DNA of 57,132 nucleotides from contig JAHELB010000006.1 in the NCBI GenBank assembly GCA_024644385.1, positions 1 through 57,132 of the forward strand. The letters are read 5' to 3'. The translations under genes were made by a program, and so were the position numbers. The DNA is from Nitrosopumilaceae archaeon. GTDB lineage: Archaea; Thermoproteota; Nitrososphaeria; Nitrososphaerales; Nitrosopumilaceae. Below the pieces are notes generated by a model. It saw nothing but the letters and a program-made list of their open reading frames with translations, was not told the origin of the DNA and did no database searches. Every line of letters starts with the position of its first letter. The stretch's first letter is position 1. Below are positions 5,131 to 15,437 of the stretch, piece after piece.

Positions 5131-5667
5131 ATGAACAAAACGGATAAAAATGTCAGACATCAGGACCAGACAGGATCAGTTTCCAAGCAACAAGTTAAAA
5201 CAAAGCAAATTGTATCCCAACAAATTAAAAGTGAATCAACCCCTAAGCCAGAAATTAGATCAGAGACATCACAAGAATTTTTCCTTACATACAAACAAAA
5301 TGTAGAGAAATACTTTGATCAAATGGAACAATCTATTCCAAAATACTATCAAACATTATCTGAATTACAACAAGAGTTTCTTCAAGCCTGGGAAAATATG
5401 TTTAATGCTAGCATAGCCGTTCAAAAGGAATTTAGTAGTAAAACTGGATTGGATTCCAAACAATCAAGTATTGCTAGTAAATTTGTTTCAGATACAACTG
5501 AAGCAGCTATTAGAGCTCGAACTGTGAGGGACAAAATATTTTTGACATCCATTGACACTACCAAAGAAAACATAAAAGAATGGAATAGACGATCACAAGA
5601 ATTTGCAGATTTGAATCGAAGGATATTGCAGTCTTGGGTTTCATCATTTACGGCTAGGAAAAACTAG
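5131..5667 (+). CDS. Phasin-like helical protein
   Basis: 178 aa. The first ~50 residues are polar and Gln/Lys/Ser-rich, with no signal peptide. From about residue 55 it is a continuous amphipathic helical region (YKQNVEKYFDQMEQSIPKYY, LQQEFLQAWENMFNASIAVQ) ending in NRRILQSWVSSFTARKN. This composition and repeated W/F-containing helices resemble phasin or PhaE-type proteins that coat polyhydroxyalkanoate granules, but no PHA synthase gene is in the window and the similarity is only in pattern. Any helical scaffold protein is a fair alternative. Confidence 0.6.
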   Translation: MNKTDKNVRHQDQTGSVSKQQVKTKQIVSQQIKSESTPKPEIRSETSQEFFLTYKQNVEKYFDQMEQSIPKYYQTLSELQQEFLQAWENMFNASIAVQKEFSSKTGLDSKQSSIASKFVSDTTEAAIRARTVRDKIFLTSIDTTKENIKEWNRRSQEFADLNRRILQSWVSSFTARKN

Positions 5668-5724
5668 GCGTAAATTTTCTATTTTTATTTAAAATTGTAA
5701 CAATTTTTCTGTTTCAAAATCATA

Positions 5725-7179
5725 TTATCTTTTAATTGCTAGAAACCTTGAATCATCAGAGTTCCAAATTATCTTAATATCTAGATTGTTTTTAAAGTCA
5801 TTTGACATTTTTTGAATTTGTTTATGAGTGTCTATGTTAATATCCTCCAATGCCTGTGATTTTTCATCTAGGATTTGTTCCATGTTTGATTCATGGTTTT
5901 TTCGCAATTCCATAATTTGAATAGCAAGTTCATCTTTGGTCATTCCATCTTTGGAATAAAATTTATCGAGTAGATCTTTTTCCTCCTGTTTTGCAAAATT
6001 TTCAGCTTCTTTGTACATTTGATCATAGTTTTTCTTTAATTGAATTTGATCAAGAGTATGTAAATCATAAAGGTCGTTAATCTCTTGATTTAATTCAAAT
6101 ATTTGATTTTCAATTTTTTTTTCTTGGTCTTTATCCAGTATAAATTGCGTAAGCTCATGTATCTCCCCTATCCCTCCTTCAATCCAAGTATCAGCAGTGG
6201 ATTCTAAAATACATCCATAATCTCTAGCCTCAATGTGATATGCAACAATATGCCCTTCTATGCATTGAGTTCCAGGAGTTGTTCTAATTGTTGGTGTAAG
6301 TGAATTGTCATCAAAAATTAATACGGTAGAGTCTACAATTTTTCCCATTCCACGCATTTGCCAAATTTCAGCAGTAGAATTTGTGATACATGCATAATCA
6401 TTTGTATGCAATCTATGCACTACAACATATCCTTTGCGACATTGAGTGTCAGGATTGGTTGCTAGAGATTCATAAGCATGCTTGTCATTAGGGTTTGCTA
6501 AAAGATATTCGGGATCTGATCTATAATCAGTGTAATAGTCAGCTAGTTGAGATTGGGTAAAGGGATTTTGAGGTAATTGTCCGGTAGAATTAAAAAGTAA
6601 TTGTTGTTTGTAAATTGCTAAATTATGTTTTACATTAAACTGAGCGTTCATTTCGATTAATTCTATTCTTTTAGTTTCAGCTGCCTTATGGTAGGCAGCC
6701 CTTGCCTCACTTAGACTCCCACCATTTGCTATTACTTTTTTTAGTGCTTCCCTGCCAGCATTTACCTTCATTTCCTTGAATTCAAATTGATCCCAAAATA
6801 CTCCCTTTATTTGGGGTGGTTTATCTTCTACAAATCTCTCGAAGGCAGCACGAGACGTATAGTTTGACCAGAGATTTTCCCATTCTAAAAGATCTTGATT
6901 GAGTCTTTCAAGTGCAATTTTTCGTTTTTCTTCTAGTTCTAGCTGAGCTTTTGTTCGTTCATACTCTCTTTTTTCCAAATCTTCAATCCATTTTTTTGTT
7001 TGTTCAATCTTTTCTAAAATATCTAAAGCAAGAGGATTGTTTAACAAATCTCCTGATAGTGTGTTTTGTTGACCTAAAACAATTGTATCGTTTTGTGCAT
7101 TACTTGGCCTTATGTCTAGGCCAAGGGGCAAACTCAATGTTAAAATCAAGATTAATGGAATGACTATCTGTCTCAACAT
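5725..7179 (-). CDS. Secreted coiled-coil protein with FWDQFEF domain and two Cys-pair repeats
   Basis: 484 aa with an N-terminal signal peptide (IVIPLILILTLSLPLGLDIR). Order: coiled coil (about 55-110), a ~95-residue domain marked by GVFWDQFEFKEMKVNAG and LIEMNAQFNVKHNLAIY, two ~37-residue repeats each with a cysteine pair (CRKGYVVVHRLHTNDYAC; CIEGHIVAYHIEARDYGC, each followed by STAxxW), and a long charged coiled coil to the end. The FWDQFEF domain reappears in the protein at 54459-55406. The Cys-pair repeats are diverged forms of the module in 13774-15120 and 25016-26296. Exported and probably cell-surface; function unknown. Confidence 0.8.
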   Translation of the reverse strand: MLRQIVIPLILILTLSLPLGLDIRPSNAQNDTIVLGQQNTLSGDLLNNPLALDILEKIEQTKKWIEDLEKREYERTKAQLELEEKRKIALERLNQDLLEWENLWSNYTSRAAFERFVEDKPPQIKGVFWDQFEFKEMKVNAGREALKKVIANGGSLSEARAAYHKAAETKRIELIEMNAQFNVKHNLAIYKQQLLFNSTGQLPQNPFTQSQLADYYTDYRSDPEYLLANPNDKHAYESLATNPDTQCRKGYVVVHRLHTNDYACITNSTAEIWQMRGMGKIVDSTVLIFDDNSLTPTIRTTPGTQCIEGHIVAYHIEARDYGCILESTADTWIEGGIGEIHELTQFILDKDQEKKIENQIFELNQEINDLYDLHTLDQIQLKKNYDQMYKEAENFAKQEEKDLLDKFYSKDGMTKDELAIQIMELRKNHESNMEQILDEKSQALEDINIDTHKQIQKMSNDFKNNLDIKIIWNSDDSRFLAIKR

Positions 7180-7440
7180 TCAATTAAAAATTAAATTGTA
7201 TTTATATGATCCTCAAAATTGTCACTCATTTTTTTATAAAAATTAATTTTTAATCCTACTTTTTGACAAATTGTATTATTACCAAAATATCAAGAGGATC
7301 CTTATTTTTTGTATTTTGTAAATTAGATGGTATGATGTATTTGGTCGGGGAATACATCTACCTATCTAAGTGAATTTTTTTTGTAATTGTATAATAAAAA
7401 CACCACGTACAATTCGTTCATCAGAATTCTCAGCAGTGCC

Positions 7441-7450
7441 TATATATTAA
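7441..7450 (+). promoter_or_regulatory. TATA box in front of intergenic hairpin
   Basis: TATATATTAA is centred 23-25 bp upstream of the first arm of the hairpin at 7468-7521, the position expected for a promoter that starts transcription at the hairpin. No protein-coding start follows at that distance. Confidence 0.4.
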
Positions 7451-7467
7451 ATTGTTATACTAGAAAC

Positions 7468-7521
7468 AATTGGAACTGTCACCAAAATTCCACGCATCGG
7501 TTTTGGTCTTAAGTTCCAATT
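7468..7521 (+). ncRNA. Candidate structured small RNA in 358-bp gene-free stretch
   Basis: Between 7180 and 7537 there is no credible gene. It holds a two-part stem: AATTGGAACT (7468-7477) pairs perfectly with AGTTCCAATT (7512-7521), and inside it ACCAAAA (7481-7487) pairs with TTTTGGT (7501-7507) around a 13-base loop. A TATA box sits the right distance upstream. Alternatives are a 3' structure or terminator of the minus-strand gene ending at 7538, or a small palindromic repeat element. Strand is therefore uncertain. Confidence 0.4.
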
Positions 7522-7537
7522 AAATTAAAAAATTTTC

Positions 7538-7768
7538 TCAACCACTCGTGGAATTATAATGATTGCGTAATATGCTTTTCATCAATGGCAAATACAATTC
7601 ATTTGATGTTGGTTTTGTTTTGCATTTTGATAAGAGTCTATCACAATATTGTTTTTCTTCTTCTGTTAACTGTGATGCGTGAAGATAGTTTTTCTTTGAA
7701 GCAAGATCATAAAGAAACGAATAATATTCTTTTAGAGTTTCCTGGTCCTGTAATTCTTTTGCCCTCAT
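7538..7768 (-). CDS. Small soluble hypothetical protein
   Basis: 76 aa, helical and charged (ELQDQETLKEYYSFLYDLAS, then TEEEKQYCDRLLSKCK). The opposite-strand frame 7585-7794 would be hydrophobic and low in charge, so the minus strand is preferred. No family recognised. The stop is 17 bp from the hairpin at 7468-7521, which may serve as its 3' end. Confidence 0.55.
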   Translation of the reverse strand: MRAKELQDQETLKEYYSFLYDLASKKNYLHASQLTEEEKQYCDRLLSKCKTKPTSNELYLPLMKSILRNHYNSTSG

Positions 7769-7921
7769 TTTTTCTCAAAGAAACCAGGGAATAGAATTAT
7801 TTAGTATCTGCCTTACTTTTTGATTGATTCCTGTTCAGAATTTGAATTTTTTTTACCCGTTTAGTTCAATATTTGAACAATGGAGACTATCTTTGCATTA
7901 GGAAAAACAATTTGATTTAAA

Positions 7922-8533
7922 ATGACTATGGCCGAGCCTGTAATTGAGCAAAAAAAAGAGATTAAAATCGATGCAATAGATAGACAAATTCTAAACTTGC
8001 TTATTTCAAATGCACGAGATTCCACAAGAACCATAGTTAAGAAACTCGAAGGTATGGGTACTGAAATGTCAGAGAGAGGGGTAGGAAAAAGAATTTCACG
8101 TTTAGAAAAACTTGGAATAATTCGTGGCTATACGACGATGGTTGATCTAATTCAGGTAAATATGCCCATTTTACGACTGATTACGGTGAAATTTACATCT
8201 CCAAAAGATTTTGTTGCGAGGTTAGATGAAATGAAACAATATTTGACTGGTGCACCCTATTGTGATTTTTCGGCTAGAACGAACGGGAATATTGACTGGA
8301 TTGAACTAAAATTTTTTAACAACCATGAACAAGCCCAAAAAGAAGAGGATCTGTATCGAGCTTGGTTTGGGGATATAATGGAAGATTATAGATCCTACGA
8401 CCTTGATATTCACAAAATGGGTTGGCAGCTTTTCGATGAGGATGATTTTAATAGATTTATTCAGAGCATGACTAAAAAGGAAGATTCTGGCTCTAGCATC
8501 AACAATCCAGAGGGTAATTCTAATCCAAAATAA
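7922..8533 (+). CDS. Lrp/AsnC-family transcriptional regulator
   Basis: 203 aa. The N-terminal AsnC-type helix-turn-helix spans about residues 15-75 (IDAIDRQILNLLISNARDST and GVGKRISRLEKLGII), followed by a ligand-binding/dimer domain of RAM type with atypical sequence, and a polar Ser/Asn-rich C-terminal tail. Lrp proteins bind DNA as dimers or octamers and respond to amino acids or other metabolites. The first ATG (7922) is used here; ATG 7928 is an equally good start. Single gene; targets unknown. Confidence 0.88.
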   Translation: MTMAEPVIEQKKEIKIDAIDRQILNLLISNARDSTRTIVKKLEGMGTEMSERGVGKRISRLEKLGIIRGYTTMVDLIQVNMPILRLITVKFTSPKDFVARLDEMKQYLTGAPYCDFSARTNGNIDWIELKFFNNHEQAQKEEDLYRAWFGDIMEDYRSYDLDIHKMGWQLFDEDDFNRFIQSMTKKEDSGSSINNPEGNSNPK

Positions 8534-12014: not shown

Positions 12015-12839
12015 ATGTCAGGAGAAGAAAAGGAACAAGAGATTACCGAAAAAATTAAAATCATGGCTACGGATGATGAGAGAATAAAATCATTCGGTGA
12101 GTTGTTAACTAATGATTCAAGCAGAGCAATCCTACAATTGCTATTTAATGAAGAACTCACCGCACTTCAGATTGCAGATAAAACTGGAATTTCTCTTCAA
12201 TTAGTAAAATATCACATCATCAAATTACAGGATCTAGGCGTGGTGAAGGTGACTAAAACCGAAAAAAATTCCAAATCTCAGGATATGAAGTATTATTCTG
12301 CTTCTAAATTTAGCATGGTTATTGTTCCTCCCATATACTCTGAAAAAACAAAGGAAAGCAAGCTCCTGGTTCGTTCATTTAGGCATATTTACAAAATTTC
12401 AGGTTTAGGACTAGCTGCAGGGATTTCAGGCCTTTTGTCATTTTCAATGTTACAACAAAAAAATAATGTATCTATTGAACCAGATAAAGAAATTCAAGAG
12501 ACTAGTCTTCAAGATATGGAGGGGAGTTTTCAAGCAGCAATAGAAGAATCGGGTGAAGACGTAGCTGCAAAATCAGGAGATGCTGCCATTTCCACTACAC
12601 CCTCTGTAGAATCTACACCGGAGGTTTTAAAGGAAAATAGATTAGAAGAAGCTTTAGAGCTTCAACAACGAAGTATTGATGCAGCTGAGGCAAATCCTTC
12701 TATAGGATCTGGTACTCCTCTTTTTGATTTTGGGGATTTAGCAATTACCTTTACCATAATCGCAATAATTTTGGGTGGATTGGCTGCATTCTTTTTCATC
12801 AAATCCCTCAAACAGTCGAAACAAAAACGACTGGCATAA
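12015..12839 (+). CDS. Membrane-anchored ArsR-type winged-helix regulator
   Basis: 274 aa. Winged helix at about residues 25-95 (LTNDSSRAILQLLFNEELTA, ISLQLVKYHIIKLQDLGVVK), then one membrane helix (about 131-147), an outside acidic segment of ~90 residues, and a second helix (ITFTIIAIILGGLAAFFF) before a basic tail. Both ends are therefore cytoplasmic. The outside segment ends NPSIGSGTPLFDFG, almost the same as NPKAGSGTPMFAADG in the next gene. A DNA-binding domain tied to the membrane suggests one-component sensing of an envelope signal; this is inference. It is divergent from the beta-propeller gene. Confidence 0.85.
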   Translation: MSGEEKEQEITEKIKIMATDDERIKSFGELLTNDSSRAILQLLFNEELTALQIADKTGISLQLVKYHIIKLQDLGVVKVTKTEKNSKSQDMKYYSASKFSMVIVPPIYSEKTKESKLLVRSFRHIYKISGLGLAAGISGLLSFSMLQQKNNVSIEPDKEIQETSLQDMEGSFQAAIEESGEDVAAKSGDAAISTTPSVESTPEVLKENRLEEALELQQRSIDAAEANPSIGSGTPLFDFGDLAITFTIIAIILGGLAAFFFIKSLKQSKQKRLA

Positions 12840-12866
12840 TCTAGTTCTAAACAATTTTTAGTGAAA

Positions 12867-12878
12867 ATGAAATTTCAT
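12867..12878. repeat. Perfect 12-bp palindrome upstream of 12914 gene
   Basis: ATGAAATTTCAT lies 36-47 bp upstream of the ATG at 12914, between the regulator and its neighbour. It could be an operator; in AT-rich DNA a chance palindrome cannot be excluded. Confidence 0.3.
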
Positions 12879-12913
12879 CAAAGCCTTTATTCGATTTTCA
12901 CGTAATAAAATCA

Positions 12914-13228
12914 ATGACTAGAAAAACAACGGCAATCATAACAGGAGTAATGTTTAGTCTTTTGATATTACCTTCTGTTAGTAACCTTGCATTTGCACAG
13001 TACATTGTAACTGATGGAAAAACTGGACTCGATGACTACTTGCAACTTGCTCATGATAAGGTTACAATTGCACATGACAATCCAAAAGCTGGATCTGGAA
13101 CACCAATGTTTGCAGCAGATGGGGTTGTAGGTGCTTTAATTTTGTCTACCGGAATATTTGGCGGAGTTGCTGCAACATTTTTTATTAGAGGCCGTCAAGG
13201 AAAATACGCTGCAATTGGACGTGGATAA
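12914..13228 (+). CDS. Small exported protein with GSGTP-helix tail
   Basis: 104 aa. Signal peptide MTRKTTAIITGVMFSLLILP ending near FAQ, a ~45-residue mature segment (GKTGLDDYLQLAHDKVTIAH), the NPKAGSGTPMF motif, a membrane helix (GALILSTGIFGGVAATFFI) and a basic GRQGKYAAIGRG end. The motif plus helix matches the end of the regulator encoded just upstream, which argues that the two act together, for example by helix pairing or processing by one protease. Function unknown. Confidence 0.75.
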   Translation: MTRKTTAIITGVMFSLLILPSVSNLAFAQYIVTDGKTGLDDYLQLAHDKVTIAHDNPKAGSGTPMFAADGVVGALILSTGIFGGVAATFFIRGRQGKYAAIGRG

Positions 13229-13773: not shown

Positions 13774-15120
13774 TTAGATCGAAGAAATTACAATTCCTCG
13801 TTCAATTAGTTTTTCTGCTGTTGTTTCTTTGACACAAATTGGTGTTGCATTGGATGTTTTCATTACAAGTGTAAAACCTTCACGACATTCTACCATGGTT
13901 GCATCAATTCCTGCTGCAACTTGATGCCTAGGGGAAATCCAGCTCATTGAAAATTCTCTTGCCTTTTCCATGAAATGATCTCTCATTTCTTGTTTTTCTA
14001 AATCACTCATTGATTTATCTCGCAATGAATGCTTGAAATCTCGTAGTTCTCCATGAAGTGTCTTGATCTCAATTTTTTGCTCATCAGTCAAAGTACTTGC
14101 TCTTAGAATCATGTGAGATTTACGGTCAGAAATCATAGAGTCTTTATGGTCAGACATTTGGCTTTTCATAGAGTCTTTATGGTCAGACATTTGGCTTTTC
14201 ATAGAGTCTTTATGGTCAGACATTTGGCTTTTCATAGAGTCTTTATGGTCAGACATTTGGCTTTTCATGTACATCATATGCTCCTCAATGAACATGTCCC
14301 TTCCAGAGTCATCTAGAGAGCAATATTTTTCCATTTCTAAAAGATGATCTACTTTTTTCTGATGTTCTTCAATAAACTCTAATTTCTCTTGTTCAGACAT
14401 TTCACAAAATTCATCCATCTTCTCTCTTTTGTTATAGTCAAATTTCTTGGAATCATGATCTCGCATAAATTCATCCTTATTTTCTTCAATGTAAGCATCT
14501 CTTTCTAAATCATCCAGTAAACAATACTCTTCCATTTTTTCTTGATGATCAGATGTCATCGGATGTTTTTCTAGGAAGGTTTCTTTATCTTCATCAGACA
14601 TTTCACAGTATTCATCCAATTTTTCTCTCATGTCATATTCGTGTTTTAGGTATGCATCCATGTGTTCTTCAAAGTAAGCATCTTTTTCTGATTCATCCAG
14701 TAAACAATACTCTTCCATTTTTTCTTGATGATCAAATGTCATCGGATGTTTTTCTAGGAAGGTTTCTTTATCTTCATCAGACATTTCACAATATTTATCC
14801 CACATATCGTCCATATCCCAATCATCTTTCTCTACATAATTTGGAAAATGTTCGTCAATAAATTCATCAATTAGATCTTCCCGTTCCATTTCATCTAATT
14901 CACAAAGATTTGCTAATCGTTCTTCAAATTGTTCCAGTCTTGGATGATCCATGAATAATTGTTTTTTTTCTTCTCCAGTCATTTTACAAAAATACTCTAG
15001 TCTGTCGTCAAAGTCGTGGTCGTCATCATCTGATTCTGCAAATGCTATTACAGTTCCCGCGGTTATCCCGGTGAATATTATCAGTGAAAAAACAACACTA
15101 AGAAGTTGTATTTTTTTCAT
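13774..15120 (-). CDS. Secreted acidic repeat protein with C-terminal Cys-pair module
   Basis: 448 aa from ATG 15120 (MKKIQLLSVVFSLIIFTGIT signal peptide); an upstream in-frame ATG at 15204 is unlikely. The mature protein has four ~60-residue acidic helical repeats, each with two cysteines, of the type YCEMSDEDKETFLEKH and MEEYCLLDESEKDAYFEEH. Next come 4-5 copies of DHKDSMKSQMS, then a helical Glu/Lys region. It ends with CREGFTLVMKTSNATPICV followed by ETTAEKLIERGIV, a module shared with other secreted proteins here. Many Asp/Glu suggest divalent-cation binding or a surface-layer role, unproven. It is divergent from 15186-15437. Confidence 0.82.
   Translation of the reverse strand: MKKIQLLSVVFSLIIFTGITAGTVIAFAESDDDDHDFDDRLEYFCKMTGEEKKQLFMDHPRLEQFEERLANLCELDEMEREDLIDEFIDEHFPNYVEKDDWDMDDMWDKYCEMSDEDKETFLEKHPMTFDHQEKMEEYCLLDESEKDAYFEEHMDAYLKHEYDMREKLDEYCEMSDEDKETFLEKHPMTSDHQEKMEEYCLLDDLERDAYIEENKDEFMRDHDSKKFDYNKREKMDEFCEMSEQEKLEFIEEHQKKVDHLLEMEKYCSLDDSGRDMFIEEHMMYMKSQMSDHKDSMKSQMSDHKDSMKSQMSDHKDSMKSQMSDHKDSMISDRKSHMILRASTLTDEQKIEIKTLHGELRDFKHSLRDKSMSDLEKQEMRDHFMEKAREFSMSWISPRHQVAAGIDATMVECREGFTLVMKTSNATPICVKETTAEKLIERGIVISSI
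14135..14266 (-). repeat. 33-bp tandem repeat, 4 copies
   Basis: Four identical 33-bp units begin at 14135, 14168, 14201 and 14234 and encode the 11-residue DHKDSMKSQMS repeat inside the acidic secreted protein. Exact identity indicates recent expansion. Confidence 0.95.
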
Positions 15121-15185
15121 TAATAAATTTCCATAATATAGGCTATAAAGCCTATTGGAACAATAATACACAATAATTAATAATA

Positions 15186-15437
15186 ATGAAATGGATTCGT
15201 GCAATCATGCCTGAAATTTCCCAGAAAGATATAGAACGTATAGAGTTGTTGGAAATCGTAGCTAGTACCAAAACCGGACTTAAAATGTTGTCCAGTGAAC
15301 AATTAAACCGTCTATATCAATTGGTAAACGAGAAAGTCTATACAAATGAAATCCATATTGCCAAATCAAAAAAAGATTTACTGGAAAAAATAAACAATAG
15401 AATTTATGATCTAGGCGAAGGAAGAATAATTCTCTAA
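15186..15437 (+). CDS. Hypothetical small helical protein
   Basis: 83 aa (or 76 aa from the ATG at 15207), soluble and helical: ISQKDIERIELLEIVASTKT, MLSSEQLNRLYQLVNEKVY, SKKDLLEKINNRIYDLGEG. Divergent from the acidic secreted protein with a 65-bp gap. No family recognised. Confidence 0.55.
   Translation: MKWIRAIMPEISQKDIERIELLEIVASTKTGLKMLSSEQLNRLYQLVNEKVYTNEIHIAKSKKDLLEKINNRIYDLGEGRIIL

Follow-up and report, generated by a model that had tools for sequence, protein, structure and literature searches.

Based on sequence comparisons, a protein of a Nitrosopumilaceae ammonia-oxidising archaeon was identified as a membrane-anchored winged-HTH regulator that ends in a segment homologous to AmoZ, a subunit of AMO, and the small protein encoded beside it as a paralogue of AmoZ (AmoZ2), distinct from AmoZ proper. 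AMO (ammonia monooxygenase) is the enzyme with which nitrification begins. We proposed that the two genes form an autoregulated module around a spare AMO subunit, in which the regulator would show an AmoZ decoy outside the membrane and set the expression of AmoZ2. A probability of about 0.5 was assigned to this reading, of which the anatomy is near certain and the sensing is what we infer.

The window, that is, the whole stretch of 57,132 nucleotides that was analysed, lies on contig C80 of the 1.56 Mb genome G000. The features of the locus are collected in Table 1.

Table 1. Features of the regulator/AmoZ2 locus (positions in the window)
Feature	Position	Strand	Basis or remark
Regulator, 274 aa	12015..12839	+	Winged-HTH, TM, linker, AmoZ-like segment, TM; orthologues within genus
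wHTH DNA-binding domain, residues 22-96	12078..12302	+	Pfam, AlphaFold, Foldseek, dN/dS
Regulator TM1, about residues 125-147	12387..12455	+	Hydropathy by eye; AlphaFold helix 116-150, low confidence
Regulator AmoZ-like module, putatively outer-face, residues 207-237 (helix + NPSIGSGTPLF)	12633..12725	+	Identity, hhalign, invariant residues
Regulator TM2 and basic, putatively cytoplasmic end, residues 239-273	12729..12833	+	AlphaFold helix 239-273; sequence
AmoZ2, exported AmoZ paralogue, 104 aa	12914..13228	+	Homology to AmoZ of contig C45 (G000:C45), family alignment
AmoZ2 module, putatively outer-face, GLDDYLQLAHDKVTIAHDNPKAGSGTPMF	13025..13111	+	Segment identity comparison, family alignment
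Operator-like inverted repeat GTGAAATTGTAATTTTACCAAA	11955..11976	+	60 bases 5' of regulator start codon; exact genome match
Operator-like inverted repeat GTGAAAATGAAATTTCATCAAA	12861..12882	+	53 bases 5' of AmoZ2 start codon; exact genome match
TATA-like CTTTATT	12885-12891		After AmoZ2 repeat; about 25 bases 5' of AmoZ2 start
Beta-propeller protein PF09826	9655..11883	-	Pfam 1.6e-149; divergent to regulator

AmoZ and its paralogue

AmoY and AmoZ were assigned to AMO by BN-PAGE and crosslinking (Hodgskiss et al., PMC10030591); according to the passages of that paper searched, amoY and the directly upstream amoZ are found one or two genes from amoABCX in most Nitrosopumilaceae. In a Nitrosopumilus genome (L039) the order was amoA-amoX-amoC-amoB, two genes, a gene for an 89-aa one-helix protein (amoY) and a gene for a GSGTP protein, where amoA (PF12942, 6.9e-116), amoC (PF04896) and amoB (PF04744) were recognised by Pfam. 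Contig C45 of the window genome, elsewhere in the genome than the window locus, encodes a 110-aa GSGTP protein adjoining AmoY. Judged by synteny, size and topology, this protein is AmoZ. Its relatives were found in 141 of 151 Nitrosopumilaceae genomes; they were present in the ammonia-oxidising families and absent from most other families of the order. The AmoZ copies of one f8 genus carried two cysteines in the outer domain, matching the Nitrososphaera AmoZ as described in the passages searched (PMC10030591). A PDB sequence search with AmoZ and AmoZ2 queries gave no meaningful match, the PDB copy searched contained no archaeal AMO chain resembling AmoA, and no virus-borne AmoZ was confirmed in IMG/VR.

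When the genome was searched with the 104-aa protein of the window, three places were hit: the protein itself, its C45 paralogue (46% identity, E=9.2e-20) and the tail of the regulator. AmoZ2 is laid out as a signal peptide, a short helix, GSGTP, a TM helix and a GRxGKYAAxGRG end, and helices 3-30, 39-55 and 68-101 were predicted by AlphaFold at low confidence. In the family alignment it retained the AmoZ signal peptide, GSGTP, FGG and the GRxGKYAAxGRG end, with A26, Y30, GSGTP and FGG being invariant. It was similar to AmoZ (Nmar_1507 / NVIE_004550), as far as the latter is described in the passages searched (PMC10030591), in the signal peptide ending AxAQY, the outer helix, NPxxGSGTP, the TM helix with FGG and the basic end. 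Unlike AmoZ, AmoZ2 is shorter and drifted in its outer part, has its own regulator and operator-like repeat, and lies beside the regulator instead of amoY; since the window gene sits away from amoY, it was regarded as a paralogue. The two settings did not overlap among the copies compared: none of 27 AmoY-linked copies had a regulator as a neighbour and none of 43 regulator-linked copies had AmoY.

Two other relatives were observed. A second type of AmoZ paralogue was found in the Nitrosopumilus-like genus g12 (L215 5233-5538, L216 5649-5996, L217 5432-5767), without a tailed regulator and without the operator, in a conserved cluster where it is followed by two small genes (MPNQFSQLLC..., MTAMETLLA...) and accompanied by a divergent exported protein (AVQLDAAIPK...). 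A 266-aa exported protein of another genome (G200, L201 3143-3943) resembled AmoZ in its signal peptide and in the beginning of the mature protein (AQYMGNVGS...YALEALDIQKRI) and lacked GSGTP.

The regulator and its AmoZ-like tail

The N-terminal domain of the regulator matched Pfam HTH_20 at 2.1e-7, above the cut-off of that model. The best Foldseek matches of the wHTH were PH1932, the Pyrococcus heat shock regulator, NolR and CadC/CzrA (ArsR-like). Hence, the DNA-binding domain has the same fold as in ArsR-like regulators (HTH_20/HTH_5), which differ from the present protein in that it is membrane-anchored and carries an AmoZ-like outer segment. The AlphaFold model, based on 16 homologues, contained a confident wHTH (22-96), a helix (116-150), a disordered acidic linker (151-206), a further helix (207-226), an interruption at GSGTP and a last helix (239-273); the confidence was low outside the wHTH, and the models of the regulator and AmoZ2 were usable for the wHTH alone. 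Because positive residues precede TM1 and follow TM2, and the linker is acidic, the HTH was placed in the cytosol, with TM1 leading outwards, the AmoZ-like segment probably on the outer face and TM2 returning the basic end. Within the genus, and with synonymous sites near saturation, dN/dS was 0.02 for the wHTH, 0.44 for the linker, 0.18 for the AmoZ-like module and 0.15 for TM2.

The original prediction had pointed to NPSIGSGTPLF in the regulator and NPKAGSGTPMF in its neighbour, each with a single hydrophobic helix and a basic end after it, as a common tail. Both open reading frames and both motifs were confirmed, and the likeness was beyond chance. The tail matched AmoZ2 with 35% identity over 57 residues (E=2.8e-6, own-genome search) and the C45 AmoZ with 52% identity (E=2.4e-11, search with the tail), and an hhalign comparison of 13 regulator tails with 13 AmoZ proteins gave a probability of 99.5% and E=1.4e-22 over 62 columns. 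The protein that most often bears the GSGTP tail is a subunit of AMO, AmoZ, whose outer segment is homologous to the tail that in the regulator is fused behind the wHTH; this connection had been missed.

The extent of the likeness had to be redrawn as well. The GSGTP segment is indeed shared, whereas the membrane helix after it, which was included in the predicted common tail, was only 9-41% identical to same-genome AmoZ or AmoZ2, compared with 27-76% for the outer segment. The shared stretch starts about 25 residues before GSGTP with a helix (LEEALELQ.R.I..A.ANP), and the conserved part of the tail consisted of this outer helix, NPxxGSGTP and a single further residue, either aromatic or hydrophobic. 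Residues E212, G231, S232, G233 and P235 were invariant in 16 tailed regulators from several genera. The regulator tail ends with KSLKQSKQKRLA and is without the GRxGKYAAxGRG end of most Nitrosopumilaceae AmoZ. The suggestion that the likeness reflects pairing of the two helices was not supported, as the TM segments diverge between clades and the outer segment is kept.

The outer module of the window regulator showed 58% identity to the AmoZ of its genome, as against 36% to the AmoZ2 encoded beside it, and the tandem-type tails of the window genus were 58-76% identical to the AmoZ of the same genome and 33-45% to the adjacent AmoZ2. The tail in this genus was therefore most likely derived from AmoZ, as far as identities can tell, and its copying from the neighbouring AmoZ2 was rejected for the same reason. 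Since the outer segments of AmoZ2 have drifted to this degree, AmoZ2 may do something else.

AmoZ-like segments were also observed outside these proteins. In one genome (L089, G145:C1:1438000-1451000, 5353-8397) a broken tailed regulator, AmoZ2 and a 603-aa VWA protein (PF00092, 8e-15) shared near-identical AmoZ segments (YMGNVGTEGQT.SYTLEEALEL...GSGTP), located near the N-terminus in the VWA protein, and this locus looks as if pieces of AmoZ were repeatedly copied into neighbouring genes. In genus g15 two PF09826 proteins (L198 2676-5012, L199 2733-5066), of the same beta-propeller family as the protein encoded divergently to the window regulator, showed a weak likeness to AmoZ in a stretch (VLEEALEIQQRRIESGQAIPSTGFGTS) immediately preceding the propeller, and no regulator was found in their vicinity.

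Association with AmoZ2 and the operator-like repeat

Regulators were collected from Nitrosopumilaceae, mostly MAGs, by likeness to the whole window regulator regardless of a tail, together with their flanks. In the resulting set of 135 distinct full-length regulators, AmoZ2 adjoined all 40 tailed ones with enough flank and was not found beside 89 of the 90 tail-less ones. The lone tail-less exception (L137) had GSGTP in another frame, that is, a frameshifted tail, so that the count became 41/41 for assessable tailed and 0/89 for tail-less regulators. It had been predicted that a tail shared by a regulator and its neighbour is unusual, which was borne out, and that its random occurrence in unrelated proteins, without co-occurrence with membrane regulators, would speak against the idea; instead, the tail recurred with the same neighbour across Nitrosopumilaceae. 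The Fisher p of 8e-33 for the association is not independent evidence, because tail states are clustered on the tree and independent events are few, and 41/41 does not represent 41 independent events.

According to the wHTH tree, the tail state changed at least 2 times, with a best estimate of 3. The tailed clade of the window genus (support 100) was nested in a clade (99) of Nitrosopumilus-type regulators with neither tail nor AmoZ2. The regulator-AmoZ2 pairs were mostly divergent overall and mostly tandem in the window genus. A divergent PF09826 beta-propeller gene was conserved beside the regulators of the clade, tailed or tail-less, and is the ancestral neighbour. The tree alone fits gain or loss; however, because the relatives lacking tail and AmoZ2 also keep the beta-propeller gene, an older pair of regulator and beta-propeller gene most likely acquired the tail and AmoZ2 jointly.

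The pattern GTRAAANNNWAATTTYAYCAAA had two exact matches in the genome, one before the regulator, between it and the divergent beta-propeller gene, and one before AmoZ2. The inverted repeat RTRAAA-N6-TTTYAYCAAA, expected zero times in shuffled sequence, preceded 41 of 43 regulator-linked AmoZ2 genes from different genera, none of 27 AmoY-linked amoZ genes and none of 13 other copies; because the motif was read off the regulator/AmoZ2 loci, the fair test is the contrast with amoZ and the other copies. In the window clade, the repeat is conserved upstream of many regulators, at -55 to -60, and a variant, GTTAAA-N6-TTTAATCAAA, was found before some tail-less relatives. Since the repeat was common to AmoZ2 genes beside regulators of different clades, this putative operator is probably read by the whole regulator family.

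The TATA-like element after the repeat, given its distance from the AmoZ2 start, suggests that the AmoZ2 transcript is leaderless. Archaeal activators usually act at sites just upstream of TATA-like elements. With the putative site lying immediately 5' of BRE/TATA, an activator is more likely than a repressor. We considered and rejected that the regulator also controls the amo operon, as there was no operator before amoZ and none was recognised at the other amo genes in a genome scan for sites with up to 2 mismatches. For this reason the regulator/AmoZ2 module seems to act on its own genes and not on the amo operon. Several of the looser sites inspected (up to 2 mismatches) were located inside genes or before unrelated exported proteins. 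An identical element, GTAAAAACCAATTTTCATCAAATAATATTAG, was seen before two different exported-protein genes (L220 and L221; G000:C7:1562-1583 and C53:9212-9233) and is probably the operator of another regulator.

Proposed sensing and alternative explanations

We proposed that the regulator would bind the RTRAAA-N6-TTTYAYCAAA sites just upstream of the TATA-like elements and thereby control amoZ2 and its own gene, and in the window genus perhaps the beta-propeller gene too. Its outer segment would be an AmoZ decoy docking on the partners of AmoZ, which are AmoB or AmoY according to the published model of AMO. Vacant AmoZ sites, or competing free AmoZ or AmoZ2, would alter the state of the HTH domains, and the output would be AmoZ2, which in turn would fill in for AmoZ in AMO or replace it. 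A more specific version, in which a transmembrane transcription factor with an AMO-subunit decoy counts vacant or misassembled AMO and switches on AmoZ2, the subunit mimicry having evolved at least twice, was put forward tentatively, as the less probable one.

The locus supplies a concrete candidate regulator, a paralogous AMO subunit and a putative operator. The 25-30 residues of AmoZ that were copied and kept, while the rest was free to change, would represent its likely interaction face. The occurrence of the tail beside a spare AmoZ gene that is probably controlled by the regulator points to a decoy piece of AMO by which the cell would read the state of this enzyme.

The protein was rated as a membrane one-component regulator with an outer domain taken from an enzyme subunit. 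In the regulatory hydrogenases HupUV/HoxBC a relative of an enzyme part senses for the expression of that enzyme, the catalytic paralogue sensing the substrate through a kinase; here, in contrast, a segment of a non-catalytic subunit is fused to a transcription factor. With ArnR/ArnR1 of Sulfolobus (PMC6396743) the regulator shares an N-terminal HTH and two TM segments, known here partly from a low-confidence model. ArnR acts on promoters via inverted repeats (ArnR box TCGAC-N5-GTCGA; PMC6396743); the putative operator here is likewise an inverted repeat, of a different sequence, RTRAAA-N6-TTTYAYCAAA. ArnR also has a putative HAMP and a sensor domain before its two C-terminal TMs (PMC6396743), whereas the regulator gave no such Pfam match, its TM1 follows directly after the wHTH, and the sensor candidate between the TMs is the enzyme-subunit segment. 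AmoZ was already known; the passages of the AmoZ papers searched made no mention of AmoZ paralogues or of the regulator, and AmoZ2 and the tailed regulator are apparently undescribed within those passages.

The readings were ranked in the order of decoy sensing, homotypic sensing, alternative subunit, neutral fusion and processing site. It is conceivable, although unlikely, that the tail binds AmoZ2 itself in the membrane, AmoZ2 serving its own regulator as ligand or anti-activator in a feedback pair with no involvement of AMO. This reading takes up the original suggestion that the small protein tunes the regulator. The tail and AmoZ2 are always neighbours and have the operator in common, and AmoY-AmoZ crosslinks beyond the distance limits, reported in the passages searched (PMC10030591), allow inter-protomer contacts. 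However, the closer similarity of the genus tails to AmoZ than to AmoZ2 fits a copied AmoZ binding face better than co-adaptation to AmoZ2.

Rather more doubtful is a switch of subunits, in which AmoZ2 replaces AmoZ under certain conditions, the regulator senses some linker, membrane or metal input and the tail merely localises it to AMO clusters. The features of AmoZ retained by AmoZ2 agree with such a replacement; the tail-less relatives, which retain a terminal TM helix as well as a variable linker, also imply that the family has some other input. On the other hand, the tail was found only with AmoZ2, suggesting that the two are functionally linked.

We thought it improbable that an AmoZ duplicate was recombined onto the end of the regulator as a functionless by-product. 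The patchwork in genome G145 (L089) is of the kind expected, but the module is under purifying selection when its dN/dS is compared with that of the linker, the same residues are invariant in regulators of several genera, and every one of the state changes, at least two, went along with AmoZ2 and with the same operator. A common protease site, as originally suggested, or a sortase-like C-terminal signal was given hardly any credence: the GSGTP-TM-basic layout resembles C-terminal sorting signals, but conservation extends to the helix that precedes the motif, AmoZ was modelled in the AMO complex with the stretch and TM helix retained (PMC10030591, passages searched), the segment also lies inside the VWA protein and, weakly, in the beta-propeller proteins, not at their C-termini, and at E<=5 the small protein matched no NCBIfam model and the regulator none for a sorting signal.

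The locus is adjoined in the window by a gene on the minus strand (13774-15204) for an exported acidic protein with long internal repeats (CEMSDEDKETFLEKHPMT.DHQEKMEEYC; MKSQMSDHKDS, four times).
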